A DNA stretch of 64,000 bases from Siphonodentalium dalli (Eukaryota; Mollusca; Scaphopoda; Gadilida; Siphonodentaliidae), in the NCBI GenBank assembly GCA_032622095.1, contig CP136065.1, positions 206,624,151 to 206,688,150 on the forward strand, read 5' to 3'. The translations under genes and the position numbers were made by a program. Positions within the stretch are counted from its first letter, which is position 1. Each line of letters starts with the position of its first letter. This document shows positions 7,733 to 54,122 of the stretch, one piece after another. The notes beneath the pieces are model-generated. The model had not been told where the DNA came from and did no database searches. It worked only from the letters and a program-made list of their open reading frames with translations.

Positions 7733-7790
7733 CAAATATCAACCTATATCTGAGAGCCCAATGTTAAATATCAACCTTTATCTGAGAGTC

Positions 7791-10700
7791 CAATGGTAAA
7801 TATCAACCTAGATATCTGAGAGTCCAATGTTAAATATCAACCTAGATATCTAAGAGTCCAATGTTAAATATCAACCTAGATATCTGAGGGTCCAATGTTA
7901 AATATCAACCTATATCTGAGAGTCCAGTGTTAAATATCAACCTAGATATCTGAGGGTCCAATGTTAAATATCAACCTATATCTGAGGGTCCAATGGTAAA
8001 TATCAACCTAGATATCTAAGAGTCCAATGTTAAATATCAACCTAGATATCTAAGAGTCCAATGTTAAATATCAACCTAGATATCTGAGGGACCAATGTTA
8101 AATATCAACCTAGATATCTGAGAGTCCAATGTTAAATATCAACCTAGATATCTGAGGGACCAATGTTAAATATCAAGCTATATCTGAGGGTCCAATGTTA
8201 AATATCAACCTAGATATCTGAGGGTCCAATGTTAAATATCAACCTTTATCTGAGGGTCCAATGTTAAATATCAACCTATATCTGAGAGTCCAATGTTAAA
8301 TATCAACCTAGATATCTGAGAGTCCAATGTTAAATATCAACCTAGATATCGGAGGGTCCAATGTTAAATATCAACCTAGATATCTAAGAGTCCAATGTTA
8401 AATATCAACCTTTATCTGAGGGTCCAATGTTAAATATCAACCTATATCTGAGAGTCCAGTGTTAAATATCAACCTAGATATCTGAGGGTCCAATGTTAAA
8501 TATCAACCTATATCTGAGGGTCCAATGGTAAATATCAACCTAGATATCTGAGGGTCCAATGTTAAATATCAACCTTTATCTGAGGGTCCAATGTTAAATA
8601 TCAACCTATATCTGAGAGTCCAATGTTAAATATCAACCTAGATATCTGAGAGTCCAATGTTAAATATCAACCTAGATATCGGAGGGTCCAATGTTAAATA
8701 TCAACCTAGATATCTGAGAGTCCAATGTTAAATATCAACCTATACCTGAGAGTCCAATGTTAAATATCAACCTTTATCTGAGAGTCCAATGTTAAATATC
8801 AACCTTTATCTGAGAGTCCAATGTTAAATATCAACCTATATCTGAGGGTCCAGTGTTAAATATCAACCTTTATCTGAGGGTCCAGTGTTAAATATCAACC
8901 TTTATCTCAGAGTCCAATGTTAAATATCAACCTTTATCTGAGAGTTCAATGTTAAATATCAACCTATATCTGAGAGTCCAATGTCAAATATCAACCTATA
9001 TCTGAGAGTCCAATGTTAAATATCAACCTTTATCTGAGAGTCCAATGTTAAATAGCAACCTATATCTGAGAGTCCATTGTTAAATATCAACCTATATATC
9101 TGAGGGAACAATGTTAAATATCAACCTTTATCTGAGAGTCCAATGTTAAATATCAACCTATATCTGAGAGTCCAATGTCAAATATCAACCTTTATCTGAG
9201 GGTCCAGTGTTAAATGTCAGCCTATATCTGAGAGTCCAGTGTTAAATATCAACCTATATCTGAGGGTCCAGTGTTAAATATCAACCTATATCTGAGGGTC
9301 CAGTGTTAAATATCAACCTATATCTGAGAGTCCAGTGTTAAATGTCAGCCTATATCTGAGGGTCCAATGTTAAATATCAACCTTTATCTGAGAGTCCAAT
9401 GTTAAATATCAACCTTTATCTGAGAGTCCAATGTTAAATATCAACCTTTATCTGAGAGTCCAATGTTAAATATCAACCTATATCTGAGGGTCCAGTGTTA
9501 AATATCAACCTAGATATACGAGAGTCCAATGTTAAATATCAACCTATATATCTGAGGGTCCAATGTTAAATATCAACCTATATCTGAGAGTCCAATGTTA
9601 AATATCAACATTTATCTGAGACTCCAATGTTAAATATCAACCTAGATATCTCAGGGTCCAATGTTAAATATCAACCTAGATATCTGAGAGTCCAATGTTA
9701 AATGTCAACCTAGATATCTGAGGGTCCAATGTTAAATATCAACCTAGATATCTGAGAGTCCAATGTTAAATATCAACCTATATCTGAGGGAACAATGTTA
9801 AATATCAACCTAGATATCTGAGAGTCCAATGTTATTTATCAACCTATATCTGAGAGTCCAATGTTAAATGTCAACCTAGATATTTGAGGGTCCAATGTTA
9901 AATATCAACCTAGATATCTGAGAGTCCAATGTTAAATATCAACCTATATCTGAGAGTCCAATGTTAATATCAACCTATATATGATAGTCCAATGTTAAAT
10001 ATCAACGTTTATCTGAGTGTCCAATGTTAAATATCAACCTAGATATCTGAGAGTCCAGTGTTAAATATCAACCTTTATCTGAGAGTCCAATGTTAAATAT
10101 CAACCTTTATCTGAGAGTCCAATGTTAAATATCAACCTAGATATATGAGAGTCCAATGTTAAATATCAACCTAGATATCTGAGAGTCTAATGTAAAATAT
10201 CAACCTATATCTGATAGTCCAATGTTAAATATCAACCTAGATATCTGAGAGTCCAATGTTAAATATCAACCTAGATATCTGAGAGTCCATTGTTAAATAT
10301 CAACCTTTATCTGAGAGTCCAATGTTAAATATCAACCTATATCTGAGAGTCCAATGTTAAATATCAACCTATATCTGAGAGTCCAGTGTTAAATATCAAC
10401 CTAGATATCTGAGAGTCCAATGTTAAATATCAACCTAGATATCTGAGAGTCCAATGTTAATTATCAACCTAGATATCTGAGGGTCCAATGTTAAATATCA
10501 ACCTAGATATCTGAGGGTCCAATGTTAAATATCAACCTATATATCTGAGAGTCCAATGTTAAATATCAACCTTTATCTGAGAGTACAATGTTAAATATCA
10601 ACCTATATCTGAGAGTCCAATGTTAAATATCAACCTTTATCTGAGAGTCCAATGTTAAATATCAACCTAGATATCTAAGAGTCCAATGTTAAATATCAAC

Positions 10701-13700
10701 CTAGATATCTAAGAGTCCAATGTTAAATATCAACCTAGATATCTGAGGGTCCAATGTTAAATATCAACCTAGATATCTGAGAGTCCAATGTTAAATATCA
10801 ACCTAGATATCTGAGGGTCCAATGTTAAATATCAACCTAGATATCTGAGAGTCCAATGTTAAATATCAACCTATATCTGAGAGTCCAATGTTAAATATCA
10901 ACCTTTATCTGAGAGTCCAATGTTAAATATCAACCTAGATATCTGAGAGTCCAATGTTAAATATCAACCTAGATATATGAGATTCCAATGTTAAATATCC
11001 ACCTATATATGAGAGTCCAATGTTAAATATCAACGTATATCTCAGAGTCCAATGTTAAATATCAACCTAGATATCTGAGAGTCCAATGTTAAATATCAAC
11101 CTATATCTGAGAATCCAATGTTAAATATCAACCTTTATCTGAGAGTCCAATGTTAAATAGCAACCTAGATATCTGAGAGTCCAATGTTAAATATCAACCT
11201 AGATATCTGAGAGTCCAATGTTAAATATCAACCTAGATATCTGAGAGTCCAATGTTAAATATCAACCTATATCTGAGAGTCCAATGTTAAATATCAACCT
11301 TTATCTGAGAGTCCAATGTTAAATATCAACCTAGATATCTGAGAGTCCAATGTTAAATATCAACCTAGATATATGAGATTCCAATGTTAAATATCCACCT
11401 ATATATGAGAGTCCAATGTTAAATATCAACGTATATCTCAGAGTCCAATGTTAAATATCAACCTAGATATCTGAGAGTCCAATGTTAAATATCAACCTAT
11501 ATCTGAGAGTCCAATGTTAAATATCAACCTTTATCTGAGAGTCCAATGTTAAATAGCAACCTAGATATCTGAGAGTCCAATGTTAAATATCAACCTATAT
11601 ATGAGAGTCCAATGTTAAATAGCAACCTTTATCTGAGAGTCCAATGTTAAATATCAACCTAGATATCTGAGAGTCCAATGTTAAATATCAACCTATATAT
11701 GAGAGTCCAATGTTAAATATCAACCTATATATGAGAGTCCAATGTTAATATCAACCTATATATGAGAGTCCAAAGTTAAATATCAACCTTTATCTGAGTG
11801 TCCAATGTTAAATATCAACCTAGATATCTGAGAGTCCAGTGTTAAATATCAACCTTTATCTTAGAGTCCAGTGTTAAATATCAACCTATATCTGAGGTCC
11901 AATGTTAAATATCAACCTATATCTGAGAGTCCAGTGTTAAATATCAACCTATATATGAGAGTCCATTGTAAAATATCAACCTATATATGAGAGTCCAATG
12001 TTAAATATCAACCTATATCTGAGAGTCCAATGTTAAATATCAACCTATATCTGAGAGTCCAGTGTTAAATATCAACCTAGATATCTGAGAGTCCAATGTT
12101 AAATATCAACCTATATATGAGAGTCCATTGTTAAATATCAACCTATATATGAGAGTCCAATGTTAAATATCAACCTATATCTGAGAGTCCAATGTTAAAT
12201 ATCAACCTATATCTGAGAGTCCAGTGTTAAATATCAACCTAGATATCTGAGAGTCCAATGTTAAATATCAACCTATATATGAGAGTCCATTGTTAAATAT
12301 CAACCTATATATGAGAGTCCAATGTTAAATATCAACCTTTATCTCAGAGTCCAATGTTAAATATCAACCTTTATCTGAGAGTTCAATGTTAAATATCAAC
12401 CTATATCTGAGAGTCCAATGTCAAATATCAACCTATATCTGAGAGTCCAATGTTAAATATCAACCTATATCTGAGAGTCCAGTGTTAAATATCAACCTAT
12501 ATCTGAGAGTCCAATGTTAAATATCAACCTAGATATCTGAGGGAACAATGTTAAATATCAACCTTTATCTGAGAGTCCAATATTAAATATCAACCTATAT
12601 CTGAGAGTCCATTGTTAAATATCAACCTAGATATCTGAGGGAACAATGTTAAATATCAACCTTTATCTGAGAGTCCAATGTTAAATATCAACCTATATCT
12701 GAGAGTCCAATGTCAAATATCAACCTTTATCTGAGGGTCCAGTGTTAAATATCAACCTATATCTGAGAGTCCAGTGTTAAATATCAACCTTTATCTGAGA
12801 GTCCAATGTTAAATATCAACCTATATCTGAGAGTCCAATGTTAAATATCAACCTTTATCTCAGAGTCCAATGTTAAATATCAACCTTTATCTGAGAGTTC
12901 AATGTTAAATATCAACCTAGATATCTGAGAGTCCAGTGTTAAATATCAACCTATATCTGAGAGTCCAATGTTAAATATCAACCTATATATGAGAGTCCAT
13001 TGTTAAATATCAACCTATATATGAGAGTCCAATGTTAAATATCAACCTTTATCTCAGAGTCCAATGTTAAATATCAACCTTTATCTGAGAGTTCAATGTT
13101 AAATATCAACCTAGATATATGAGAGTCCAATGTTAAATATCAACCTATATCTGAGAGTCCAGTGTTAAATATCAACCTAGATATATGAGAGTCCAATGTT
13201 AAATATCAACCTATATCTGAGAGTCCAGTGTTAAATATCAACCTAGATATATGAGAGTCCAATGTTAAATATCAACCTATATCTGAGAGTCCAGTGTTAA
13301 ATATCAACCTAGATATATGAGAGTCCAATGTTAAATATCAACCTAGATATATGAGAGTCCAATGTCAAATATCAACCTATATCTGAGAGTCCAATGTTAA
13401 ATATCAACCTATATCTGAGAGTCCAGTGTTAAATATCAACCTAGATATATGAGAGTCCAATGTTAAATATCAACCTATATCTGAGAGTCCAGTGTTAAAT
13501 ATCAACCTAGATATATGAGGGTCCAATGTTAAATATCAACCTTTATCTCAGAGTCCAATGTTAAATATCAACCTTTATCTGAGAGTCCAATGTTAAATAT
13601 CAACCTTTATCTGAGAGTCCAATATTAAATATCAACCTATATCTGAGAGTCCAATGTTAAATATCAACCTATATCTGAGAGTCCATTGTTAAATATCAAC

Positions 13701-14261
13701 CTATATATGAGAGTCCAATGTTAAATGTCAACCTTTATCTGAGAGTCCATTGTTAAATATCAACCTATATCTGAGAGTCCAATGTTAAATATCAACCTTT
13801 ATCTGAGAGTCCAATATTAAATATCAACCTTTATCTGAGAGTCCAATGTTAAATATCAACCTATATCTGAGAGTCCAATGTTAAATATCAACCTATATCT
13901 GAGAGTCCAGTGTTAAATATCAACCTTTATCTGAGGGTCCAATGTTAAATATCAACCTATATCTGAGAGTCCAGTGTTAAATATCAACCTTTATCTGAGG
14001 GTCCAATGTTAAATATCAACCTTTATCTGAGAGTCCAGTGTTAAATATCAACCATTATCTGAGGGTCCAATGTTAAATATCAACCTATATCTGAGAGTCC
14101 AATGTTAAATATCAACCTATATGTCTGAGAGTCCAATGTTAAATATCAACCTATATACGAGAGTCCATTGTTAAATATCAACCTATATCTGAGAGTCCAA
14201 TGTTAAATATCAACCTTTATCTCAGAGTCCAATGTTAAATAGCATCCTTTATCTGAGAGTC
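7791..14261. repeat. Higher-order block A1 (about 6.47 kb)
   Basis: First copy of a large duplicated block. It is recognised by rare markers in fixed order, for example AATGGTAAAT at 7,791, TATCGGAGG near 8,345, CTATACCTGAG at 8,741 and GTTAATATC...ATGATAG at 9,964. The same series recurs 6,471-6,505 bp further on. Boundaries are accurate to about one unit. Confidence 0.85.
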
Positions 14262-17200
14262 CAATGGTAAATATCAACCTAGATATCTGAGAGTCCAATG
14301 TTAAATATCAACCTAGATATCTAAGAGTCCAATGTTAAATATCAACCTAGATATCTGAGGGTCCAATGTTAAATATCAACCTATATCTGAGAGTCCAGTG
14401 TTAAATATCAACCTAGATATCTGAGGGTCCAATGTTAAATATCAACCTATATCTGAGGGTCCAATGGTAAATATCAACCTAGATATCTAAGAGTCCAATG
14501 TTAAATATCAACCTAGATATCTAAGAGTCCAATGTTAAATATCAACCTAGATATCTGAGGGTTCAGTGTTAAATATCAACCTAGATATCTGAGGGACCAA
14601 TGTTAAATATCAACCTAGATATCTGAGAGTCCAATGTTAAATATCAACCTAGATATCTGAGGGACCAATGTTAAATATCAAGCTATATCTGAGGGTCCAA
14701 TGTTAAATATCAACCTAGATATCTGAGGGTCCAATGTTAAATATCAACCTTTATCTGAGGGTCCAATGTTAAATATCAACCTATATCTGAGAGTCCAATG
14801 TTAAATATCAACCTAGATATCTGAGAGTCCAATGATAAATATCAACCTAGATATCGGAGGGTCCAATGTTAAATATCAACCTAGATATCTAAGAGTCCAA
14901 TGTTAAATATCAACCTTTATCTGAGGGTCCAATGTTAAATATCAACCTATATCTGAGAGTCCAGTGTTAAATATCAACCTAGATATCTGAGGGTCCAATG
15001 TTAAATATCAACCTATATCTGAGGGTCCAATGGTAAATATCAACCTAGATATCTGAGGGTCCAATGTTAAATATCAACCTTTATCTGAGGGTCCAATGTT
15101 AAATATCAACCTATATCTGAGAGTCCAATGTTAAATATCAACCTAGATATCTGAGAGTCCAATGTTAAATATCAACCTAGATATCGGAGGGTCCAATGTT
15201 AAATATCAACCTAGATATCTGAGAGTCCAATGTTAAATATCAACCTATACCTGAGAGTCCAATGTTAAATATCAACCTTTATCTGAGAGTCCAATGTTAA
15301 ATATCAACCTTTATCTGAGAGTCCAATGTTAAATATCAACCTATATCTGAGGGTCCAGTGTTAAATATCAACCTTTATCTGAGGGTCCAGTGTTAAATAT
15401 CAACCTTTATCTCAGAGTCCAATGTTAAATATCAACCTTTATCTGAGAGTTCAATGTTAAATATCAACCTATATCTGAGAGTCCAATGTCAAATATCAAC
15501 CTATATCTGAGAGTCCAATGTTAAATATCAACCTTTATCTGAGAGTCCAATGTTAAATAGCAACCTATATCTGAGAGTCCATTGTTAAATATCAACCTAT
15601 ATATCTGAGGGAACAATGTTAAATATCAACCTTTATCTGAGAGTCCAATGTTAAATATCAACCTATATCTGAGAGTCCAATGTCAAATATCAACCTTTAT
15701 CTGAGGGTCCAGTGTTAAATGTCAGCCTATATCTGAGAGTCCAGTGTTAAATATCAACCTATATCTGAGGGTCCAGTGTTAAATATCAACCTATATCTGA
15801 GGGTCCAGTGTTAAATATCAACCTATATCTGAGAGTCCAGTGTTAAATGTCAGCCTATATCTGAGGGTCCAATGTTAAATATCAACCTTTATCTGAGAGT
15901 CCAATGTTAAATATCAACCTTTATCTGAGAGTCCAATGTTAAATATCAACCTTTATCTGAGAGTCCAATGTTAAATATCAACCTATATCTGAGGGTCCAG
16001 TGTTAAATATCAACCTAGATATACGAGAGTCCAATGTTAAATATCAACCTATATATCTGAGGGTCCAATGTTAAATATCAACCTATATCTGAGAGTCCAA
16101 TGTTAAATATCAACATTTATCTGAGACTCCAATGTTAAATATCAACCTAGATATCTCAGGGTCCAATGTTAAATATCAACCTAGATATCTGAGAGTCCAA
16201 TGTTAAATGTCAACCTAGATATCTGAGGGTCCAATGTTAAATATCAACCTAGATATCTGAGAGTCCAATGTTAAATATCAACCTATATCTGAGGGAACAA
16301 TGTTAAATATCAACCTAGATATCTGAGAGTCCAATGTTATTTATCAACCTATATCTGAGAGTCCAATGTTAAATGTCAACCTAGATATTTGAGGGTCCAA
16401 TGTTAAATATCAACCTAGATATCTGAGAGTCCAATGTTAAATATCAACCTATATCTGAGAGTCCAATGTTAATATCAACCTATATATGATAGTCCAATGT
16501 TAAATATCAACGTTTATCTGAGTGTCCAATGTTAAATATCAACCTAGATATCTGAGAGTCCAGTGTTAAATATCAACCTTTATCTGAGAGTCCAATGTTA
16601 AATATCAACCTTTATCTGAGAGTCCAATGTTAAATATCAACCTAGATATATGAGAGTCCAATGTTAAATATCAACCTAGATATCTGAGAGTCTAATGTAA
16701 AATATCAACCTATATCTGATAGTCCAATGTTAAATATCAACCTAGATATCTGAGAGTCCAATGTTAAATATCAACCTAGATATCTGAGAGTCCATTGTTA
16801 AATATCAACCTTTATCTGAGAGTCCAATGTTAAATATCAACCTATATCTGAGAGTCCAATGTTAAATATCAACCTATATCTGAGAGTCCAGTGTTAAATA
16901 TCAACCTAGATATCTGAGAGTCCAATGTTAAATATCAACCTAGATATCTGAGAGTCCAATGTTAATTATCAACCTAGATATCTGAGGGTCCAATGTTAAA
17001 TATCAACCTAGATATCTGAGGGTCCAATGTTAAATATCAACCTATATATCTGAGAGTCCAATGTTAAATATCAACCTTTATCTGAGAGTACAATGTTAAA
17101 TATCAACCTATATCTGAGAGTCCAATGTTAAATATCAACCTTTATCTGAGAGTCCAATGTTAAATATCAACCTAGATATCTAAGAGTCCAATGTTAAATA

Positions 17201-20200
17201 TCAACCTAGATATCTAAGAGTCCAATGTTAAATATCAACCTAGATATCTGAGGGTCCAATGTTAAATATCAACCTAGATATCTGAGAGTCCAATGTTAAA
17301 TATCAACCTAGATATCTGAGGGTCCAATGTTAAATATCAACCTAGATATCTGAGAGTCCAATGTTAAATATCAACCTATATCTGAGAGTCCAATGTTAAA
17401 TATCAACCTTTATCTGAGAGTCCAATGTTAAATATCAACCTAGATATCTGAGAGTCCAATGTTAAATATCAACCTAGATATATGAGATTCCAATGTTAAA
17501 TATCCACCTATATATGAGAGTCCAATGTTAAATATCAACGTATATCTCAGAGTCCAATGTTAAATATCAACCTAGATATCTGAGAGTCCAATGTTAAATA
17601 TCAACCTATATCTGAGAATCCAATGTTAAATATCAACCTTTATCTGAGAGTCCAATGTTAAATAGCAACCTAGATATCTGAGAGTCCAATGTTAAATATC
17701 AACCTAGATATCTGAGAGTCCAATGTTAAATATCAACCTAGATATCTGAGAGTCCAATGTTAAATATCAACCTATATCTGAGAGTCCAATGTTAAATATC
17801 AACCTTTATCTGAGAGTCCAATGTTAAATATCAACCTAGATATCTGAGAGTCCAATGTTAAATATCAACCTAGATATATGAGATTCCAATGTTAAATATC
17901 CACCTATATATGAGAGTCCAATGTTAAATATCAACGTATATCTCAGAGTCCAATGTTAAATATCAACCTAGATATCTGAGAGTCCAATGTTAAATATCAA
18001 CCTATATCTGAGAGTCCAATGTTAAATATCAACCTTTATCTGAGAGTCCAATGTTAAATAGCAACCTAGATATCTGAGAGTCCAATGTTAAATATCAACC
18101 TATATATGAGAGTCCAATGTTAAATAGCAACCTTTATCTGAGAGTCCAATGTTAAATATCAACCTAGATATCTGAGAGTCCAATGTTAAATATCAACCTA
18201 TATATGAGAGTCCAATGTTAATATCAACCTATATATGAGAGTCCAAAGTTAAATATCAACCTTTATCTGAGTGTCCAATGTTAAATATCAACCTAGATAT
18301 CTGAGAGTCCAGTGTTAAATATCAACCTTTATCTTAGAGTCCAGTGTTAAATATCAACCTATATCTGAGGTCCAATGTTAAATATCAACCTATATCTGAG
18401 AGTCCAGTGTTAAATATCAACCTATATATGAGAGTCCATTGTAAAATATCAACCTATATATGAGAGTCCAATGTTAAATATCAACCTATATCTGAGAGTC
18501 CAATGTTAAATATCAACCTATATCTGAGAGTCCAGTGTTAAATATCAACCTAGATATCTGAGAGTCCAATGTTAAATATCAACCTATATATGAGAGTCCA
18601 TTGTTAAATATCAACCTATATATGAGAGTCCAATGTTAAATATCAACCTATATCTGAGAGTCCAATGTTAAATATCAACCTATATCTGAGAGTCCAGTGT
18701 TAAATATCAACCTAGATATCTGAGAGTCCAATGTTAAATATCAACCTATATATGAGAGTCCATTGTTAAATATCAACCTATATATGAGAGTCCAATGTTA
18801 AATATCAACCTTTATCTCAGAGTCCAATGTTAAATATCAACCTTTATCTGAGAGTTCAATGTTAAATATCAACCTATATCTGAGAGTCCAATGTCAAATA
18901 TCAACCTATATCTGAGAGTCCAATGTTAAATATCAACCTATATCTGAGAGTCCAGTGTTAAATATCAACCTATATCTGAGAGTCCAATGTTAAATATCAA
19001 CCTAGATATCTGAGGGAACAATGTTAAATATCAACCTTTATCTGAGAGTCCAATATTAAATATCAACCTATATCTGAGAGTCCATTGTTAAATATCAACC
19101 TAGATATCTGAGGGAACAATGTTAAATATCAACCTTTATCTGAGAGTCCAATGTTAAATATCAACCTATATCTGAGAGTCCAATGTCAAATATCAACCTT
19201 TATCTGAGGGTCCAGTGTTAAATATCAACCTATATCTGAGAGTCCAGTGTTAAATATCAACCTTTATCTGAGAGTCCAATGTTAAATATCAACCTATATC
19301 TGAGAGTCCAATGTTAATATCAACCTATATATGATAGTCCAATGTTAAATATCAACCTTTATCTGAGTGTCCAATGTTAAATATCAACCTAGATATCTGA
19401 GAGTCCAGTGTTAAATATCAACCTATATCTGAGAGTCCAATGTTAAATATCAACCTATATATGAGAGTCCATTGTTAAATATCAACCTATATATGAGAGT
19501 CCAATGTTAAATATCAACCTTTATCTCAGAGTCCAATGTTAAATATCAACCTTTATCTGAGAGTTCAATGTTAAATATCAACCTAGATATATGAGAGTCC
19601 AATGTTAAATATCAACCTATATCTGAGAGTCCAGTGTTAAATATCAACCTAGATATATGAGAGTCCAATGTTAAATATCAACCTATATCTGAGAGTCCAG
19701 TGTTAAATATCAACCTAGATATATGAGAGTCCAATGTTAAATATCAACCTATATCTGAGAGTCCAGTGTTAAATATCAACCTAGATATATGAGAGTCCAA
19801 TGTTAAATATCAACCTAGATATATGAGAGTCCAATGTCAAATATCAACCTATATCTGAGAGTCCAATGTTAAATATCAACCTATATCTGAGAGTCCAGTG
19901 TTAAATATCAACCTAGATATATGAGAGTCCAATGTTAAATATCAACCTATATCTGAGAGTCCAGTGTTAAATATCAACCTAGATATATGAGGGTCCAATG
20001 TTAAATATCAACCTTTATCTCAGAGTCCAATGTTAAATATCAACCTTTATCTGAGAGTCCAATGTTAAATATCAACCTTTATCTGAGAGTCCAATATTAA
20101 ATATCAACCTATATCTGAGAGTCCAATGTTAAATATCAACCTATATCTGAGAGTCCATTGTTAAATATCAACCTATATATGAGAGTCCAATGTTAAATGT

Positions 20201-20733
20201 CAACCTTTATCTGAGAGTCCATTGTTAAATATCAACCTATATCTGAGAGTCCAATGTTAAATATCAACCTTTATCTGAGAGTCCAATATTAAATATCAAC
20301 CTTTATCTGAGAGTCCAATGTTAAATATCAACCTATATCTGAGAGTCCAATGTTAAATATCAACCTATATCTGAGAGTCCAGTGTTAAATATCAACCTTT
20401 ATCTGAGGGTCCAATGTTAAATATCAACCTATATCTGAGAGTCCAGTGTTAAATATCAACCTTTATCTGAGGGTCCAATGTTAAATATCAACCTTTATCT
20501 GAGAGTCCAGTGTTAAATATCAACCATTATCTGAGGGTCCAATGTTAAATATCAACCTATATCTGAGAGTCCAATGTTAAATATCAACCTATATGTCTGA
20601 GAGTCCAATGTTAAATATCAACCTATATACGAGAGTCCATTGTTAAATATCAACCTATATCTGAGAGTCCAATGTTAAATATCAACCTTTATCTCAGAGT
20701 CCAATGTTAAATAGCATCCTTTATCTGAGAGTC
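14262..20733. repeat. Higher-order block A2 (about 6.47 kb)
   Basis: Second copy of block A1 in direct tandem. The offset drifts from 6,471 to 6,505 and back to 6,472 bp, because single 32/34 bp units were gained (near 14,560) and lost (near 18,220). Near 19,316-19,400 it carries a patch (TTAATATC...ATGATAG...GAGTGTCC) copied from elsewhere in the array in place of the A1 sequence at about 12,850, which points to patchy conversion. Confidence 0.85.
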
Positions 20734-35500: not shown

Positions 35501-38500
35501 GAGAGTCAGATGTTAAATAGCAACCTTTATCTGAGAGTCAAATGTTAAATAGCAACCTTTATCTCAGAGTCCAATGTTAAATATCAACCTATATCTGAGA
35601 GTCCAATGTTAAATATCAACCTTTATCTGAGAATCCAATGTTAAATATCAACCTATATCTGAGAGTCCAATGTTAAATAGCAACCTTTATCTGAGAGTCA
35701 AATGTTAAATAGCAACCTTTATCTCAGAGTCCAATGTTAAATATCAACCTATATCTGAGAGTCCAATGTTAAATATCAACCTTTATCTGAGAATCCAATG
35801 TTAAATATCAACCTATATCTGAGAATCCAATGTTAAATAGCAACCTTTATCTGAGAGTCCAATGTTAAATAGCAACCTTTATCTCAGAGTCCAATGTTAA
35901 ATAGCAACCTATATCTGAGAATCCAATGTTAAATATCAACCTTTATCTGAGAGTCCAATGTTAAAATATCAACCTATATCTGAGAGTCCAATGTTAAATA
36001 GCAACCTTTATCTGAGAGTCCAATGTTAAATATCAACCTAGATATCTGAGAGTCCAATGTTAAATATCAACCTTTATCTGAGAGTCCAATGTTAAATATC
36101 AACCTATATCTGAGAGGTCCAATGTTAAATAGCAACCTTTATCTGAGAGTCCAATGTTAAATATCAACCTATATCTGAGAGTCCAATGTTAAATATCAAC
36201 CTATATCTGAGAGTCCAATGTTAAATATCAACCTATATCTGAGGGTCCAATGTTAAATATCAACCTTTATCTGAGAGTCCAATGTTAAATAGCAACCTTT
36301 ATCTCAGAGTCCAATGTTAAATATCAACCTTTATCTGAGAGTCCAATGTTAAATAGCAACCTTTATCTCAGAGTCCAATGTTAAATAGCAACCTATATCT
36401 GAGAGTCCAATGTTAAATAGCAACCTTTATCTGAGAGTCAAATGTTAAATAGCAACCTTTATCTCAGAGTCCAATGTTAAATAGCAACCTATATCTGAGA
36501 GTCAAATGTTAAATAGCAACCTTTATCTGAGAGTCAAATGTTAAATAGCAACCTTTATCTGAGAGTCCAATGGTAAATATCAACCTAGATATCTGAGAGT
36601 CCAATGTTAAATAGCAACCTTTATCTCAGAGTCCAATGTTAAATATCAACCTAGATGTGAGAGTCAAATGTTAAATAGCAACCTTTATCTGAGAGTCAAA
36701 TGTTAAATAGCAACCTTTATCTGAGAGTCCAATGGTAAATATCAACCTAGATATCTGAGAGTCCAATGTTAAATATCAACCTTTATCTGAGAGTCCAATG
36801 TTAAATATCAACCTTTATCTGAGAGTCCAATGTTAAATAGCAACCTTTATCTGAGAGTCCAATGTTAAATAGCAACCTTTATCTCAGAGTCCAATGTTAA
36901 ATAGCAACCTATATCTGAGAATCCAATGTTAAATATCAACCTTTATCTGAGAGTCCAATGTTAAATATCAACCTTTATCTGAGAGTCCAATGTTAAATAG
37001 CATACTTTATCTCAGAGTCCAATGTTAAATATCAACCTATATCTGAGAGTCCAATGTTAAATATCAACCTATATCTGAGGGTCCAATGTTAAATATCAAC
37101 CTTTATCTGAGAGTCCAATGTTAAATAGCAACCTTTATCTCAGAGTCCAATGTTAAATAGCAACCTTTATCTGAGAGTCCAATGTTAAATAGCAACCTTT
37201 ATCTCAGAGTCCAATGTTAAATATCAACCTATATCTGAGAGTCCAATGTTAAATAGCAACCTTTATCTGAGAGTCCAATGTTAAATATCAACCTAGATAT
37301 CTGAGAGTCCAATGTTAAATATCAACCTTTATCTGAGAGTCCAATGTTAAATATCAACCTATATCTGAGAGTCCAATGTTAAATATCAACATTTATCTGA
37401 GAGTCCAATGTTAAATATCAACCTAGATATCTCAGGGTCCAATGTTAAATATCAACCTATATCTGAGAGTCCAATGTTAAATAGCAACCTTTATCTGAGA
37501 GTCCAATGTTAAATAGCAATCTTTATCTGAGGGTCCAATGTTAAATATCAACCTAGATGTGAGAGTCCAATGTTAAATAGCAACCTTTATCTGAGAGTCA
37601 AATGTTAAATATCAACCTAGATGTGAGAGTCCAATGTTAAATAGCAACCTTTATCTGAGAGTCAAATGTTAAATAGCAACCTTTATCTGAGAGTCAAATG
37701 TTAAATAGCAACCTTTATCTGAGAGTCCAATGGTAAATATCAACCTAGATATCTGAGGGTCCAATGTTAAATATCAACCTTTATCTGAGGGTCCAATGTT
37801 AAATATCAACCTATATCTGAGAGTCCAATGTTAAATATCAACCTAGATATCTGAGAGTCCAATGTTAAATATCAACCATTATCTGAGGGTCCAATGTTAA
37901 ATATCAACCTATATCTGAGAGTCCAATGTTAAATATCAACCTTTATCTGAGAGTCCAATGTTAAATATCAACCTTTATCTGAGAGTCCAATGTTAAATAT
38001 CAACCTTTATCTGAGAGTCCAATGTTAAATATCAACCTTTATCTGAGAGTCCAATGTTAAATATCAACCTATATCTGAGGGTCCAGTGTTAAATATCAAC
38101 CTAGATATATGAGAGTCCAATGTTAAATATCAACCTAGATATATGAGAGTCCAATGTTAAATATCAACCTATATCTGAGGGTCCAATGTTAAATATCAAC
38201 CTATATCTGAGAGTCCAATGTTAAATAGCAACCTATACCTGAGGGTCCAGTGTTAAATATCAACCTAGATATATGAGAGTCCAATGTTAAATATCAACCT
38301 AGATATATGAGAGTCCAATGTTAAATATCAGCCATTATCTGAGGGTCCAATGTTAAATATCAACCTATATCTGAGAGTCCAATGTTAAATATCAACATTT
38401 ATCTGAGAGTCCAATGTTAAATATCAACCTAGATATCTCAGGGTCCAATGTTAAATATCAACCTAGATATCTGAGAGTCCAAGGTTAAATGTCATCCTAG

Positions 38501-41500
38501 ATATCTGAGGGTCCAATGTTAAATATCAACCTAGATATCTGAGAGTCCAATGTTAAATATCAACCTATATCTGAGAGTCCAATGTTAAATATCAACCTAT
38601 ATATCTGAGAGTCCAATGTTAAATATCAACCTATATCTGAGGGAACAATGTTAAATATCAACCTATATCTGAGAGTCCAATGTTAATATCAACCTATATA
38701 TGATAGTCCAATGTTAAATATCAACCTTTATCTGAGTGTCCAATGTTAAATATCAACCTAGATATCTGAGAGTCCAGTGTTAAATATCAACCTTTATCTG
38801 AGAGTCCAGTGTTAAATATCAACCTATATCTGAGAGTCCAATGTTAAATATCAACCTATATCTGAGAGTCCATTGTCAAATATCAACCTTTATCTGAGGG
38901 TCCAGTGTTAAATATCAACCTATATCTGAGAGTTCAATGTTAAATATCAACCTATATATGAGAGTCCAATGTTAAATATCAACCTATATCTGGGAGTCCA
39001 ATGTTAAATATCAACCTATATCGGAGAGTCCATTGTTAAATATCAACTTATATCTGAGGGTCCAATGTTAAATATCAACCTATATATGAGAGTCCAATGT
39101 TAAATATCAACCTTTATCTGAGAGTCCATTGTTAAATATCAACTTATATCTGAGAGTCCAATGTTAAATATCAACCTATATCTGAGAGTCCAACGTCAAA
39201 TATCAACCTTTATCTGAGGGTCCAGTGTTAAATATCAACCTATATCTGAGAGTTCAATGTTAAATATCAACCTATATATGAGAGTCCAATGTTAAATATC
39301 AACCTTTAACTGAGAGTACAATGTTAAATATCAACGTATATCTGAGAGTCCAATGTTAAATATCAACCTATATATCTGAGAGTCCAATGTTAAATATCAA
39401 CCTATATATGAGAGTCCATTGTTAAATATCAACCTATATCTGAGAGTCCAATGTTAAATATCAACCTTTATCTCAGAGTCCAATGTTAAATAGCAACCTT
39501 TATCTGAGAGTCCAATGTTAAATATCAACCTAGATATCTGAGAGTCCAATGTTAAATATCAACCTATATCTGAGAGTCCAATGTTAAATATCAACCTATA
39601 TATCTGAGAGTCCAATGTTAAATATCAACCTATATATCTGAGAGTCCAATGTTAAATATCAACGTATATCTGAGAGTCCAATGTTAAATAGCAACCTTTA
39701 TCTGACAGTCCAATGTTAAATATCAACCTTTATCTGAGAGTCCAATGTTAAATATCAACCTTTATCTGAGAGTCCATTGTTAAATATCAACCTATATCTG
39801 AGAGTCCATTGTTAAATGTCAACCTTTATCTGAGAGTCCAATGTTAAATGTCAACCTTTATCTGAGAGTCCAATGTTAAATAGCAACCTTTATCTGAGAG
39901 TCCAATGTTAAATATCAACCTATATCTGAGAGTCCAATGTTAAATATCAACCTATATCTCAGAGTCCAATGTTAAATATCAACCTATATCTCAGAGTCCA
40001 ATGTTAAATATCAACCTATATCTCAGAGTCCAATGTTAAATATCAACCTATATCTGAGAGTCCAATGTTAAATGTCAACCTTTATCTGAGAGTCCAATGT
40101 TAAATAGCAACCTTTATCTGAGAGTCCAATGTTAAATAGCAACCTTTATCTGAGAGTCCAATGTTAAATATCAACCTTTATCTGAGAGTCCAATGTTAAA
40201 TATCAACCTATATCTCAGAGTCCAATGTTAAATATCAACCTATATCTGAGAGTCCATTGTTAAATGTCAACCTTTATCTGAGAGTCCATTGTTAAATGTC
40301 AACCTTTATCTGAGAGTCCAATGTTAAATGTCAACCTTTATCTGAGAGTCCAATGTTAAATAGCAACCTTTATCTGAGAGTCCAATGTTAAATATCAACC
40401 TATATCTGAGAGTCCAATGTTAAATATCAACCTAGATGTGAGAGTCCAATGTTAAATATCAACCTAGATATCTGAGATTCCAATGTTAAATATCAACCTA
40501 TATATGAGATTCAAATGTTAAATGTCAACCTTTATCTGAGAGTCCAATGTTAAATGTCAACCTTTATCTGAGAGTCCATTGTTAAATATCAACCTTTATC
40601 TGAGGGTCCAATGTTAAATATCAACCTATATCTGAGAGTCCAATGTTAAATATCAACCTAGATATCTGAGAGTCCAATGTTAAATATCAACCTTTATCTG
40701 AGAGTCCAATGTTAAATATCAACCTAGATATCTGAGAGTCCATTGTTAAATATCAACCTTTATCTGAGGGTCCAATGTTAAATATCAACCTTTATCTGAG
40801 AGTCCAATGTTAAATATCAACCTTTATCTGAGAGTCCATTGTTAAATATCAACCTTTATCTGAGAGTCCATTGTTAAATATCAACCTTTATCTGAGAGTC
40901 CAATTTTAAATATCAACCTATATCTGAGAGTCCAATGTTAAATAGCAACCTTTATCTGAGAGTCCAATGTTAAATATCAACCTTTATCTGAGAGTCCAAT
41001 GTTAAATATCAACCTATATCTGAGAGTCCAATGTTAAATATCAACCTATATCTGAGAGTCCAATGTTAAATATCAACCTATATCTGAGAGTCCAATGTTA
41101 AATAGCAACCTTTATCTGAGTGTCCAATGTTAAATATCAACCTTTATCTGAGGGTCCAATGTTAAATATCAACCTTTATCTGAGAGTCCAATGTTAAATA
41201 TCAACCTAGATATCTGAGATTCCAATGTTAAATATCAACCTATATCTGAGAGTCCAATGTTAAATATCAACCTATACCTGAGAGTCCAATGTTAAATATC
41301 AACCTTTATCTGAGAGTCCAATATTAAATATCAACCTTTATCTGAGGGTCCAATGTTAAATATCAACCTATATCGGAGAGTCCAATTTTAAATATCAACC
41401 TTTATCTGACGGTCCAATGTTAAATATCAACCTATATCGGAGAGTCCAATGTTAAATATCAACCTTTATCTGAGAGTCCAATATTAAATATCAACCTTTA

Positions 41501-42231
41501 TCTGAGGTCCAATGTTAAATATCAACCTATATCGGAGAGTCCAATTTTAAATATCAACCTTTATCTGAGGGTCCAATGTTAAATATCAACCTATATCGGA
41601 GAGTCCAATGTTAAATATCAACCTATATCGGAGAGTCCAATTTTAAATATTAACCTATATCTAAGGGTCCAATGTTAAATATCAACCTTTATCTGAGAGT
41701 CCAATGTTAAATATCAACCTATATCTGAGAGTCCAATGTTAAATATCAACCTTTATCTGAGAGTCCAATATTAAATATCAACCTATATCTGAGAGTCCAT
41801 TGTTAAATATCAACCTATATCTGCGAGTCCAATGTTAAATATCAACCTATATCGGAGAGTCCATTGTTAAATATCAACCTTTGTCTGAGAGTCCAATGTT
41901 AAATATCAACCTATATCTGAGGGTCCAATGTTAAATATCAACCTATATCAGAGAGTCCAATGTTAAATATCAACCTTTATCTGAGAGTCCAATGTTAAAT
42001 ATCAACCTATATCTGAGGGTCCAATGTTAAATATCAACCTTTATCTGAGAGTCCAATGTTAAATATCAACCTATATCCGAGAGTTAAATATTAAATATCA
42101 ACCTTTATCTGAGAGTACAATGTTAAATATCAACCTTTATCTGAGGGTCCAGTGTTAAATATCAACCTTTATCTGAGAGTCCAATGTTAAATATCAACCT
42201 ATATCTGAGAGTCCAATGTTAAATATCAACT
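32542..42231. repeat. Higher-order block C2 (about 9.7 kb)
   Basis: Near-identical copy of C1. The offset is 9,512 bp in the first half and 9,706 bp in the second, because about six units were gained near 37,050-37,240. The few differences seen include GAAAGTCC near 34,210, an extra A near 35,964 and an extra G near 36,114. The duplication looks very young. Confidence 0.88.
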
Positions 42232-44619
42232 TATATCCGAGAGTTAAATATTAAATATCAACCTTTATCTGAGAGTACAATGTTAAATATCAACCTTTAT
42301 CTGAGGGTCCAGTGTTAAATATCAACCTTTATCTGAGAGTCCAATGTTAAATATCAACCTATATCTGAGAGTCCAATGTTAAATAGCAACCTTTATCTGA
42401 GAGTCCAATGTTAAATATCAACCTATATATGAGAGTCCAATGTTAAATATCAACCTATATCTGAGTGTCCAATGTTAAATATCAACCTTTATCTGAGTGT
42501 CCAATGTTAAATATCAACCTTTATCTGAGAGTCCAATGTTAAATATCAACCTAGATATCTGAGAGTTAAATATTAATTATCAACCTTTATCTGAGAGTCT
42601 AATGTAAAATATCAACCTATATCTGAGAGTCCAATGTTAAATATCAACCTAGATATCTGAGAGTCCAATGTTAAATATCAACCTAGATATCTGAGAGTCC
42701 ATTGTTAAATATCAACCTTTATCTGAGAGTCCAATGTTAAATATCAACCTATATCTGAGAGTCCAATGTTAAATATCAACCTATATCTGAGAGTCCAGTG
42801 TTAAATATCAACCTTTATCTGAGGGTCCAATGTTAAATATCAACCTATATCTGAGGGTCCAATGTTAAATATCAACCTATATATCTGAGAGTCCAATGTT
42901 AAATATCAACCTTTATCTGAGAGTACAATGTTAAATATCAACCTATATCTGAGAGTCCAATGTTAAATATCAACCTTTATCTGAGAGTCCAATGTTAAAT
43001 ATCAACCTTTATCTGAGAGTCCAATGTTATATATCAACCTAGATATCTGAGAGTCCAATGTTAAATATCAACCTAGATATCTGAGAGTCTAATGTAAAAT
43101 ATCAACCTATATCTGATAGTCCAATGTTAAATATCAACCTAGATATCTGAGAGTCCAATGTTAAATATCAACCTAGATATCTGAGAGTCCATTGTTAAAT
43201 ATCAACCTTTATCTGAGAGTCCAATGTTAAATATCAACCTATATCTGAGAGTCCAATGTTAAATATCAACCTATATCTGAGGGTCCAATGTTAAATATCA
43301 ACCTAGATATCTGAGGGTCCAATGTTAAATATCAACCTATATATCTGAGGGTCAAATGTTAAATATCAACCTAGATATCTGAGAGTCCAATGTTAAATAT
43401 CAACCTATATCTGAGTGTCCAATGTTAAATATCAACCTATATCTGAGAGTCCAATGTTAAATATCAACCTAGATATCGGGGGGTCCAATGTTAAATATCA
43501 ACCTATATCTGAGGGTCCAATGTTAAATATCAACCTATATCTGAGGGTCCAATGTTAAATATCAACTTATATCTGAGGGTCCAATGTTAAATATCAACCT
43601 ATATCTGAGAGTCCAATGTTAAATATCAACCTATATCTGAGGGTCCAATGTTAAATATCAACCTATATCTGAGGGTCCAATGTTAAATATCAACCTTTAT
43701 CTGAGAATCCAATGTTAAATATCAACCTTTATCTGAGGGTCCAATGTTAAATATCAACTTATATCTGAGGGTCCAATGTTAAATATCAACTTATATCTGA
43801 GAGTCCAATGTTAAATATCAACCTATATCTGAGGGTCCAATGTTAAATATCAACTTATATCTGAGAGTCCAATGTTAAATATCAACCTATATCTGAGGGT
43901 CCAATGTTAAATATCAACCTATATCCGAGGGTCCAATGTTAAATATCAACCTATATCTGAGGGTCCAGTGTTAAATATCAACCTATATCTGAGGGTCCAG
44001 TGTTAAATATCAACCTTTATCTGAGAGTCCAATGTTAAATATCAACCTATATCTGAGGGTCCAATGTTAAATATCAACCTATATATCTGAGGGTCAAATG
44101 TTAAATATCAACCTAGATATCTGAGAGTCCAATGTTAAATATCAACCTATATCTGAGTGTCCAATGTTAAATATCAACCTATATCTGAGAGTCCAATGTT
44201 AAATATCAACCTTTATCTGAGGGTCCAATGTTAAATATCAACCTAGATATCTGAGGGTCAAATGTTAAATATCAACCTAGATATCTGAGAGTCCAATGTT
44301 AAATATCAACCTAGATATCTGAGGGTCCAATGTTAAATATCAAACTTTATCTGAGAATCCAATGTTAAATATCAACCTTTATCTGAGAATCCAATGTTAA
44401 ATATCAACCTTTATCTGAGGGTCCAATGTTAAATATCAACTTATATCTGAGGGTCCAATGTTAAATATCAACTTATATCTGAGGGTCCAATGTTAAATAT
44501 CAACTTATATCTGAGAGTCCAATGTTAAATATCAACCTATATCTGAGGGTCCAATGTTAAATATCAACTTATATCTGAGAGTCCAATGTTAAATATCAAC
44601 CTATATCTGAGGGTCCAAT
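40745..44619. repeat. Higher-order block D1 (about 3.87 kb)
   Basis: Begins within C2. Markers CAATTTTAAA at 40,901, CCTATATCGGAGAG at 41,367 and AGATATCGGGGGG at 43,471 recur at 44,776, 45,242 and 47,282, an offset of 3,875 falling to 3,811 bp. Boundaries are approximate. Confidence 0.8.
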
Positions 44620-47600
44620 GTTAAATATCAACCTTTATCTGAGGGTCCAATGTTAAATATCAACCTTTATCTGAGAGTCCAATGTTAAATATCAACCTTT
44701 ATCTGAGAGTCCATTGTTAAATATCAACCTTTATCTGAGAGTCCATTGTTAAATATCAACCTTTATCTGAGAGTCCAATTTTAAATATCAACCTATATCT
44801 GAGAGTCCAATGTTAAATAGCAACCTTTATCTGAGAGTCCAATGTTAAATATCAACCTTTATCTGAGAGTCCAATGTTAAATATCAACCTATATCTGAGA
44901 GTCCAATGTTAAATATCAACCTATATCTGAGAGTCCAATGTTAAATATCAACCTATATCTGAGAGTCCAATGTTAAATAGCAACCTTTATCTGAGTGTCC
45001 AATGTTAAATATCAACCTTTATCTGAGGGTCCAATGTTAAATATCAACCTTTATCTGAGAGTCCAATGTTAAATATCAACCTAGATATCTGAGATTCCAA
45101 TGTTAAATATCAACCTATATCTGAGAGTCCAATGTTAAATATCAACCTATACCTGAGAGTCCAATGTTAAATATCAACCTTTATCTGAGAGTCCAATATT
45201 AAATATCAACCTTTATCTGAGGGTCCAATGTTAAATATCAACCTATATCGGAGAGTCCAATTTTAAATATCAACCTTTATATGACGGTCCAATGTTAAAT
45301 ATCAACCTATATCGGAGAGTCCAATGTTAAATATCAACCTTTATCTGAGAGTCCAATATTAAATATCAACCTTTATCTGAGGTCCAATGTTAAATATCAA
45401 CCTATATCGGAGAGTCCAATTTTAAATATCAACCTTTATCTGAGGGTCCAATGTTAAATATCAACCTATATCGGAGAGTCCAATGTTAAATATCAACCTA
45501 TATCGGAGAGTCCAATTTTAAATATTAACCTATATCTAAGGGTCCAATGTTAAATATCAACCTTTATCTGAGAGTCCAATGTTAAATATCAACCTATATC
45601 TGAGAGTCCAATGTTAAATATCAACCTTTATCTGAGAGTCCAATATTAAATATCAACCTATATCTGAGAGTCCATTGTTAAATATCAACCTATATCTGAG
45701 AGTCCAATGTTAAATATCAACCTATATCGGAGAGTCCATTGTTAAATATCAACCTTTGTCTGAGAGTCCAATGTTAAATATCAACCTATATCTGAGGGTC
45801 CAATGTTAAATATCAACCTATATCAGAGAGTCCAATGTTAAATATCAACCTTTATCTGAGAGTCCAATGTTAAATATCAACCTATATCTGAGGGTCCAAT
45901 GTTAAATATCAACCTTTATCTGAGAGTCCAATGTTAAATATCAACCTATATCCGAGAGTCCAATGTTAAATATCAACTTATATCCGAGAGTTAAATATTA
46001 AATATCAACCTTTATCTGAGAGTACAATGTTAAATATCAACCTTTATCTGAGGGTCCAGTGTTAAATATCAACCTTTATCTGAGAGTCCAATGTTAAATA
46101 TCAACCTATATCTGAGAGTCCAATGTTAAATAGCAACCTTTATCTGAGAGTCCAATGTTAAATATCAACCTATATATGAGAGTCCAATGTTAAATATCAA
46201 CCTATATCTGAGTGTCCAATGTTAAATATCAACCTTTATCTGAGTGTCCAATGTTAAATATCAACCTTTATCTGAGAGTCCAATGTTAAATATCAACCTA
46301 GATATCTGAGAGTTAAATATTAATTATCAACCTTTATCTGAGAGTCTAATGTAAAATATCAACCTATATCTGAGAGTCCAATGTTAAATATCAACCTAGA
46401 TATCTGAGAGTCCAATGTTAAATATCAACCTAGATATCTGAGAGTCCATTGCTAAATATCAACCTTTATCTGAGAGTCCAATGTTAAATATCAACCTATA
46501 TCTGAGAGTCCAATGTTAAATATCAACCTATATCTGAGAGTCCAGTGTTAAATATCAACCTTTATCTGAGGGTCCAATGTTAAATATCAACCTATATCTG
46601 AGGGTCCAATGTTAAATATCAACCTATATATCTGAGAGTCCAATGTTAAATATCAACCTTTATCTGAGAGTACAATGTTAAATATCAACCTATATCTGAG
46701 AGTCCAATGTTAAATATCAACCTTTATCTGAGAGTCCAATGTTAAATATCAACCTTTATCTGAGAGTCCAATGTTATATATCAACCTAGATATCTGAGAG
46801 TCCAATGTTAAATATCAACCTAGATATCTGAGAGTCTAATGTAAAATATCAACCTATATCTGATAGTCCAATGTTAAATATCAACCTAGATATCTGAGAG
46901 TCCAATGTTAAATATCAACCTAGATATCTGAGAGTCCATTGTTAAATATCAACCTTTATCTGAGAGTCCAATGTTAAATATCAACCTATATCTGAGAGTC
47001 CAATGTTAAATATCAACCTATATCTGAGGGTCCAATGTTAAATATCAACCTTTATCTGAGAGTCCAATGTTATATATCAACCTATATCTGAGGGTCCAAT
47101 GTTAAATATCAACCTAGATATCTGAGGGTCCAATGTTAAATATCAACCTATATATCTGAGGGTCAAATGTTAAATATCAACCTAGATATCTGAGAGTCCA
47201 ATGTTAAATATCAACCTATATCTGAGTGTCCAATGTTAAATATCAACCTATATCTGAGAGTCCAATGTTAAATATCAACCTAGATATCGGGGGGTCCAAT
47301 GTTAAATATCAACCTATATCTGAGGGTCCAATGTTAAATATCAACCTATATCTGAGGGTCCAATGTTAAATATCAACTTATATCTGAGGGTCCAATGTTA
47401 AATATCAACCTATATCTGAGAGTCCAATGTTAAATATCAACCTATATCTGAGGGTCCAATGTTAAATATCAACCTATATCTGAGGGTCCAATGTTAAATA
47501 TCAACCTTTATCTGAGAATCCAATGTTAAATATCAACCTTTATCTGAGGGTCCAATGTTAAATATCAACTTATATCTGAGGGTCCAATGTTAAATATCAA

Positions 47601-48430
47601 CTTATATCTGAGAGTCCAATGTTAAATATCAACCTATATCTGAGGGTCCAATGTTAAATATCAACTTATATCTGAGAGTCCAATGTTAAATATCAACCTA
47701 TATCTGAGGGTCCAATGTTAAATATCAACCTATATCCGAGGGTCCAATGTTAAATATCAACCTATATCTGAGGGTCCAGTGTTAAATATCAACCTTTATC
47801 TGAGAGTCCAATGTTAAATATCAACCTATATCTGAGGGTCCAATGTTAAATATCAACCTATATATCTGAGGGTCAAATGTTAAATATCAACCTAGATATC
47901 TGAGAGTCCAATGTTAAATATCAACCTATATCTGAGTGTCCAATGTTAAATATCAACCTATATCTGAGAGTCCAATGTTAAATATCAACCTTTATCTGAG
48001 GGTCCAATGTTAAATATCAACCTATATATCTGAGGGTCAAATGTTAAATATCAACCTAGATATCTGAGAGTCCAATGTTAAATATCAACCTAGATATCTG
48101 AGGGTCCAATGTTAAATATCAAACTTTATCTGAGAATCCAATGTTAAATATCAACCTTTATCTGAGAATCCAATGTTAAATATCAACCTTTATCTGAGGG
48201 TCCAATGTTAAATATCAACTTATATCTGAGGGTCCAATGTTAAATATCAACTTATATCTGAGAGTCCAATGTTAAATATCAACCTATATCTGAGGGTCCA
48301 ATGTTAAATATCAACTTATATCTGAGAGTCCAATGTTAAATATCAACCTATATCTGAGGGTCCAATGTTAAATATCAACCTATATCCGAGGGTCCAATGT
48401 TAAATATCAACCTATATCTGAGAATCCAAT
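44620..48430. repeat. Higher-order block D2 (about 3.8 kb)
   Basis: Second copy of D1. It is followed by shorter re-duplications of about 0.3 kb near 48,150-48,720 that share CTTATATCTGAG and CTATATCCGAGGG units, before the array ends at 49,305. Confidence 0.75.
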
Positions 48431-49305
48431 GTTAAATATCAACCTTTATCTGAGAATCCAATGTTAAATATCAACCTTTATCTGAGGGTCCAATGTTAAA
48501 TATCAACTTATATCTGAGGGTCCAATGTTAAATATCAACTTATATCTGAGAGTCCAATGTTAAATATCAACCTATATCTGAGGGTCCAATGTTAAATATC
48601 AACTTATATCTGAGAGTCCAATGTTAAATATCAACCTATATCTGAGGGTCCAATGTTAAATATCAACCTATATCCGAGGGTCCAATGTTAAATATCAACC
48701 TATATCTGAGGGTCCAGTGTTAAATATCAACCTTTATCTGAGAGTCCAATGTTAAATATCAACCTATATCTGAGGGTCCAATGTTAAATATCAACCTATA
48801 TATCTGAGGGTCAAATGTTAAATATCAACCTAGATATCTGAGAGTCCAATGTTAAATATCAACCTATATCTGAGTGTCCAATGTTAAATATCAACCTATA
48901 TCTGAGAGTCCAATGTTAAATATCAACCTTTATCTGAGGGTCCAATGTTAAATATCAACCTATATATCTGAGGGTCAAATGTTAAATATCAACCTAGATA
49001 TCTGAGAGTCCAATGTTAAATATCAACCTTTATCTCAGAGTCCAATGTTAAATATCAACCTATATCTGAGTGTCCAATGTTAAATATCAACCTATATCTG
49101 AGGGTCAAATGTTAAATATCAACCTAGATATCTGAGAGTCCAATGTTAAATATCAACCTATATCTGAGAGTCCAATGTTAAATATCATCCTAGATATCTG
49201 AGTGTCCAATGTTAAATATCAACCTATATCTGAGTGTCCAATGTTAAATATCAACCTTTATCTGAGGGTCCAATGTTAAATATCAACTTATATCTGAGGG
49301 TCCAA

Positions 49306-51865: not shown

Positions 51866-52150
51866 GCGGACACACGTACCACAGTAGCGATGGCATAGTA
51901 GGTGTGACAATTAATTATGGTAGAGTTTGGTGACAATTGGTCAACATAATTTATATGCAATAGGGAGTCGTGTCGCGCGTCGCATATTCGCACAGTGAGT
52001 CGACTGACCAATTAACCCATTGAGTTTCACCAAGGTTGATCTCTACTCAATTACGTTTAGCCACATTGTATTCTCTACGATACATAACATTGCACGACCG
52101 ATCGTCCAGAATTGTCTTGTGTGTTAGCATTAAAAATATAACATTATACA

Positions 52151-54077: not shown

Positions 54078-54122
54078 CCTCTATATATTGCTCATGTCAG
54101 TGCTATATTAGCCTATTTTGTT

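Follow-up and report, generated by a model that had tools for sequence, protein, structure and literature searches.

A 41.6 kb minisatellite in a P450-like intron of Siphonodentalium dalli and its probable growth by block duplication

How does an intron come to hold 41.6 kb of one short tandem repeat, and does the repeat have a task there? We addressed both questions at a locus of the scaphopod mollusc Siphonodentalium dalli, where a minisatellite array lies between exons 2 and 3 of a cytochrome P450-like gene. The window analyzed here is the whole stretch of 64,000 nucleotides (GenBank assembly GCA_032622095.1, contig CP136065.1, positions 206,624,151 to 206,688,150 of the forward strand), and positions are counted from its first letter. 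With a probability of roughly 0.7, we read the array as a young minisatellite, of the variable number tandem repeat (VNTR) type, in the past or present intron 2 of a CYP2-like P450 gene, grown mainly by four duplications of multi-kilobase blocks (D1 to D4).

The array and its blocks

Tandem Repeats Finder reported a single array (7734-49309, period 32, 1,283.0 copies, 92% matches, 1% insertions and deletions, or indels). The original prediction, about 1,280 units at 7733-49305, was thus correct to within a few bases. An anchor scan also gave 1,283 units, with spacings of 32 bp in 993 of 1,282 cases, of 34 bp in 263, and of other lengths (25-39 bp) in 26. Judged from these spacings, the largest insertion over the usual unit is at most 7 bases, and the array runs without sizeable interruption. 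All units share one orientation, with zero antisense anchors in the window. A unit of 32 or 34 bp, repeated head to tail in 1,283 copies, lies within the size range of minisatellites or VNTRs (roughly 10-100 bp).

The units are diverse: 23 of the 155 distinct unit sequences occur once, and the mean divergence from the consensus is 4.6% over the units that measure 32 or 34 bp (1,256 of 1,283), ranging from 3.3 to 6.6% among 64-unit bins. Their order is far from random. The longest repeated run comprises 101 identical units, compared with 3-5 in 200 shuffles of the unit order, and exact repeats inside the array reach 3,386 bp. Altogether, 90.8% of the units sit in a 30-unit block with a match elsewhere in the array that is at least 90% unit-identical.

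This order contains four in-register block pairs, D1 to D4, of about 6.5, 9.5, 2.6, and 3.7 kb (Table 1), with 0.05-0.11% substitutions within pairs. The indels between copies are mostly whole units (34, 32, and 1 bp in D1; 1, 1, and 192 bp in D2; 128, 64, and 32 bp in D4). Matches to a third copy appear at an offset of 12,126, which is the sum of the D2 and D3 offsets (9,512 + 2,614) and suggests that the D3 duplication preceded D2. With each pair reduced to a single copy, the array shrinks by 683 units (22,116 bp) to 600 units (19,463 bp). In this collapsed array the best diagonal matches span just 9-11 units, yet they score above all 20 shuffles (37.4 vs. at most 13.2).

Runs of identical neighbors do not exceed the length expected by chance: the longest run of identical adjacent units is 4, and shuffles give 2-5 (maximum, n = 200), which speaks against slippage of perfect tracts. 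Together with the near-identity of the blocks, this makes homology-guided copying of multi-kilobase blocks probable in the recent growth of the array. Substitutions between the blocks are ten to twenty times rarer than between two flanking copies of a miniature inverted-repeat transposable element (MITE)-like sequence, which differ by 4 substitutions in about 380 bases. The blocks would then be recent in years as well, a dating that presumes the absence of gene conversion.

As a sequence of events, we propose that growth started from an older array with roughly 600 units and a length of about 19.5 kb, whose units had already diversified to about 4-5%. It would have reached 1,283 units mainly via four recent in-register duplications of blocks of about 2.6-9.5 kb, a pattern that unequal exchange or template switching may be expected to leave where homologous units misalign. 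The low divergence between blocks makes length polymorphism between individuals likely and, as far as one sequenced allele can tell, the length of the array is probably variable.

Several points weigh against this account. All four pairs share a nearly equal and very low divergence, with no block of intermediate age found, and an assembly loop or a repeated haplotype path could produce the same. The diagonal search for older blocks loses power above roughly 0.5-1% divergence (our own estimate rather than a computed value), because indels break the diagonals. Concerted evolution could also reduce divergence, so that old blocks look young. Finally, short local duplications, some of a few units, are present too, and block copying is not the sole process.

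The uniform divergence raises the question of an assembly artefact in length, in which the array exists, but the assembler produced D1 to D4 as duplicated paths and the real allele measures closer to 19-20 kb. Such an artefact would fit the near-identity of all four pairs and the lack of a large intermediate-age block after collapse. However, the copies of D1, D2, and D4 differ by indels and those of all four pairs by scattered substitutions, so they are not exact loops, and the longest exact repeat (3.4 kb) is within the reach of long reads. Joined haplotypes of an outbred animal, moreover, are expected to differ more. We therefore regard the artefact as unlikely and retain growth by block duplication.

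The P450 gene around the array

The array had been placed between exons 2 and 3 of one P450 gene. This location held, since the pieces are consecutive, on the same strand, and bordered by GT/AG, whereas the gene may be non-functional because of a break in its reading frame. Exons 1 and 2 have GT/AG borders and an open frame of 217 codons; their joined sequence scores 90.0 bits against the Pfam p450 profile. Exon 3, appended in frame 2, brings the score to 100.1 bits and carries the profile match from 175 to 249. In frame 0 the exon adds nothing (89.9 bits), and many stops interrupt frame 1.

Against a CYP2B6 fragment, the frame-2 peptide of exon 3 adds 11.5 bits, a gain reached by none of 1,000 shuffles (best 6.9). 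Among 216 peptide windows from flanking open reading frames (ORFs) of at least 50 amino acids, only five scored above 1.4 bits against the same fragment, and these overlap exons 1 and 2. Since the gain exceeds all shuffles and all flank windows outside exons 1 and 2, exon 3 is real P450 sequence. When its pieces are searched alone, there is no Pfam P450 match, and the comparison with PDB chains yields only E 0.48 to CYP1A2. One weak Pfam match of the frame-2 peptide, to PF17752, fell below the curated cut-off and was treated as chance.

Exons 2 and 3 share a strand and directly succeed each other in the P450 profile, so the array occupies an intronic position, filling 41,576 bp of the 45,167 bp between them. 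A misjoin would offer another origin for this arrangement: exons 1-2 and exon 3 would stem from different P450 copies, brought together by the assembly or by a real deletion between tandem paralogues. The reading frames of exons 2 and 3 indeed fail to join cleanly, but pieces that follow each other in the profile (2-175, then to 249) on one strand make a misjoin very unlikely.

The frame break itself is the main point against an intact gene. Through the canonical acceptor, exon 2 feeds frame 0 of exon 3 and meets a stop after 44 codons, whereas the P450 signal lies in frame 2; the reading frame does not continue across the intron. Two AGs, ending at 51074 and 51077, are in phase and would give a shortened frame-2 exon 3 that adds 6.6 and 7.2 bits, respectively; by eye, both lack a pyrimidine tract. 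Frame 0 of exon 3 also contains an IPGDPF stretch, which we take to resemble a CYP2 motif.

A single-base frameshift inside exon 3 was considered as the cause of the break, and this candidate was weakened by the scores. A composite reading that begins in frame 0 and passes, after an X, into frame 2 ties with the pure frame-2 reading against the best chain, CYP2B6 (125.5 bits each). CYP2B4 chains prefer the composite (best 121.5 vs. 118.2), one CYP2C9 chain slightly prefers frame 2 (119.5 vs. 118.6), and Pfam prefers frame 2 (100.1 vs. 96.3). In the comparisons inspected, the frame-0 start alone makes a difference of about -0.3 to +0.9 bits. Because these scores are mixed, we limit our claim to frames that do not join through the canonical acceptor.

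Within the window, P450 is covered only in its N-terminal half (profile 2-249). A Pfam read-through of the three forward frames, which recovers exons 1-2 as a positive control, detected no later P450 exon from exon 3 to position 64000 (12.8 kb), though an exon as weak as exon 3 could escape it; exons past 64000 would lie outside the window. No heme motif was found in the six frames of the flanks, in a pattern search without a positive control. Thus, the gene may be a pseudogene, a null allele, a gene with an unusual (alternative) acceptor, or intact but for a consensus error. Uncertain coding capacity of the reference gene copy would relax the constraint on intron length, and if the gene is transcribed through the region, the array would simply be part of a 45 kb intron.

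Table 1. Positions of the array, its duplicated blocks, the P450 exons, and the flanking MITE-like copies in the window
Feature	Start	End	Strand	Remarks
Minisatellite array	7734	49309	+	1,283 units, 32 or 34 bp mostly; consensus AAATATCAACCTATATCTGAGAGTCCAATGTT; 155 distinct unit sequences
Block D1 copy 1	7775	14245	+	198 units; vs. copy 2: 7 substitutions / 6,438 aligned bases, three indels
Block D1 copy 2	14246	20737	+	199 units
Block D2 copy 1	23016	32527	+	295 units; vs. copy 2: 5 substitutions / 9,512 aligned bases
Block D2 copy 2	32528	42237	+	301 units; 192 bp and two single bases extra vs. copy 1
Block D3 copy 1	20668	23281	+	vs. copy 2: 2 substitutions / 2,165 aligned bases
Block D3 copy 2	23282	25446	+	
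Block D4 copy 1	40744	44484	+	vs. copy 2: 4 substitutions / 3,580 aligned bases, three indels
Block D4 copy 2	44619	48262	+	
P450 exon 1	1511	1847	+	ATG, 112 codons + 1 base; donor CCAG/GTAATG; Pfam p450 profile 2-77, E 1.4e-10
P450 exon 2	5547	5860	+	acceptor AACAG/GT, donor CAGAG/GTAAGA; phase 0 end; Pfam p450 profile 86-175, E 2.1e-10
P450 exon 3	51028	51225	+	acceptor TTTGTAG/G, donor CGA/GTAAGT; P450 signal in frame 2, exon 2 feeds frame 0
MITE-like palindromic element	2815	3196	+	intron 1, upstream of array; 98.7% identical over 383 bp, inverted, to 49889-50271
MITE-like element, inverted copy	49889	50271	-	intron 2, about 580 bp downstream of array; TTAA, CCC/GGG ends (by eye)

Search for a role of the array

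At the functional level, we looked for structured RNA, coding potential, CpG content, and processing signals. Within the window, no Rfam family scored at or above its gathering threshold, and two array stretches, folded on both strands, did no better than shuffles (z 1.23, -0.86, 3.01, and -0.47). The longest stop-free stretch within the array has 52 codons, and one listed ORF of 63 codons overlaps its right edge. The 41.6 kb contain 59 CpG sites (observed/expected 0.056, vs. 0.97 and 0.91 in the flanks), a CpG desert that leaves little substrate for CpG methylation there.

On its forward strand the array has no AATAAA and no strong donor word (GTAAG). We considered selection for clean transcription as the reason but discarded it, since most 5-6-mers are missing from a 32-bp unit anyway; weaker words do occur in the array (85 TCTCAG, 22 ATTAAA, and 12 GGTAAAT).

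These observations bear on the idea of a functional gigantic intron, in which the gene is intact and expressed and the array acts on transcription timing, splicing, or chromatin, as in the Y-loops of Drosophila. According to the excerpts cited here, the introns of the Drosophila Y genes kl-3 and kl-5 are gigantic, filled with satellites over megabases, and transcribed (PMC6508621; PMC11207136). The S. dalli array resembles them as long tandem DNA in an intron that would need transcription and removal, but it is 41.6 kb rather than megabases of simple satellite, and so does not match the Drosophila Y type.

Such a role would fit the open exons 1-2 with their GT/AG borders, the genuine P450 continuation in exon 3, a forward strand clear of both signals, and the two in-phase AGs, which preserve frame 2 with a gain of 6.6-7.2 rather than 11.5 bits. 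On the other side stand the wrong frame through the canonical acceptor and the failure to detect a later P450 exon up to 64000. Moreover, the missing words are expected of any 32-bp unit, the weaker ones are present, and the array offers little to CpG methylation. We consider a functional gigantic intron improbable.

A more specific version is a still-expressed detoxification gene with a hypervariable intronic array, whose length jumps by blocks of 2.6-9.5 kb and serves as a quantitative switch on P450 output. We hold this to be highly improbable. If true, the switch would work through elongation time or the choice of alternative acceptors in exon 3, and intron length would vary by tens of kilobases between individuals.

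For a regulatory role of the array in general, we found no support, and nothing against it beyond the doubtful gene. About half of the array looks like the product of recent block copying and the reading frame does not join cleanly; thus, a fast-growing repeat without a dedicated job is the most likely description.

Comparable arrays and neighboring repeats

Arrays this long with such a unit had been described in the original prediction as unusual outside centromeric or subtelomeric DNA. This is overstated, given human VNTRs of 10-53 kb, among them one at 11q23.2, and an intronic array in CACNA1C (PMC2588610; PMC13131567). Here and below, comparisons refer to excerpts of the cited papers. In these, the closest analogue is TRACT, a 30-bp VNTR of 3 to more than 30 kb in an intron of human CACNA1C (PMC13131567). 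Both arrays are intronic, with similar units (32 vs. 30 bp), lengths of thousands to tens of thousands of bases, and many unit variants. Besides the host gene and the organism, they differ in the way they expand: TRACT expansion is attributed for the most part to perfect repeat tracts, which in some alleles reach 26 identical units, whereas perfect runs in the S. dalli array stop at 4 units and large block duplications prevail. The same authors also cite a report of long-stretch duplication in CACNA1C (PMC13131567).

Human locus-specific VNTR arrays have units of 20-125 bp and span 10-53 kb, plus one of 246 kb (PMC2588610). Examples are a 13q34 array with a 34 bp unit –printed as 47,778 bp, with printed coordinates that span about 42.8 kb–, a 40 bp unit with higher-order repeats at 1p36.32, and a 42 bp unit in a 21.6 kb array at 11q23.2, a band that we take as interstitial (PMC2588610). 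The array of S. dalli is like them in unit and array size (10-53 kb for 20-102 bp units), and some of them have irregular kilobase-scale higher-order blocks; the likeness concerns sizes and block pattern, not sequence or gene context. In a P450 gene, human CYP19, the excerpt describes an intron 4 tetranucleotide repeat with one allele of 171 bp, not a large minisatellite (PMC2362434). Altogether, the array is a real, large, and probably fast-changing minisatellite in a P450-like intron, of a kind with large minisatellites known elsewhere.

The edges of the array are sharp. Comparing the unit with the 22 kb of flanks by BLAST returned only chance-level matches of 8-12 bases; a loose anchor with 3 mismatches also matches four sites outside the array. 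The exact unit was absent from viral contigs (43-base pattern) and from prokaryote genome contigs (32-base pattern), collections without animal genomes as such, and a literature search for the unit and MITE sequences as letter strings found zero papers. Between the left and right flanks, the MITE-like pair is the only similarity at E 1e-3, and neither copy adjoins the array. TTAA ends and CCC/GGG termini, presumably those of a piggyBac-type MITE, are present in the right copy. As inverted repeats separated by about 47 kb, the two copies bracket exon 2 and the array and could mediate an inversion.

Mobile elements suggest a further origin: the repeat would be dispersed, either as a satellite or as the central repeats of a mobile element, and the array would be one of its loci. 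In the Pacific oyster, non-autonomous Helentrons (Cg_HINE) carry central, satellite-like tandem repeats that are dispersed in the genome (PMC7492417). These are tandem arrays outside known centromeric DNA, like the one described here, which also has MITE-like elements on either side. In contrast to Cg_HINE, no flanking element modules were recognized at its edges and it is present as a single copy in the window; with no unit copy in the flanks, sharp edges, and a MITE pair set apart from it, we judge this origin quite unlikely. By analogy, Helentron central repeats are a possible origin model for the array.

The flanks contain other repeats. At 56559-57227 there are degenerate, palindrome-rich tandem repeats built on GGAGATATCTCC, which also match their own reverse complement. 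Broken ORF pieces at 54123-55320 (- strand) perhaps represent a decayed transposase: one piece has weak helix-turn-helix matches below the cut-off, and a 280-amino acid piece has no PDB match. An overlapping ORF chain with shifting frames at 61083-63729 (+ strand) looks like a decayed mobile element or a multi-copy gene; its ORFs gave no Pfam match above the cut-off (four pieces), only marginal PDB matches for one piece, and no phage match. Long inverted repeats, 71-83% identical, pair 51861-52001 with 53322-53462, 57974-58218 with 58813-59015, and 60217-60354 with 60549-60688; lying downstream of exon 3, they resemble the termini of decayed DNA transposons. At 4545-4707, 52138-52306, and 53928-54086 lie self-complementary palindromes, about 160-170 bp long (80-84%), that possibly belong to other MITE families.

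The most informative feature of this locus is the block map, a clear record of the way in which a minisatellite can double by the copying of multi-kilobase blocks, as opposed to the slippage of perfect tracts. Once confirmed by reads, the locus would be a natural test case for block-wise VNTR growth, and would also test whether an intron with 45 kb of mostly repeat sequence is tolerated only in a failing gene.

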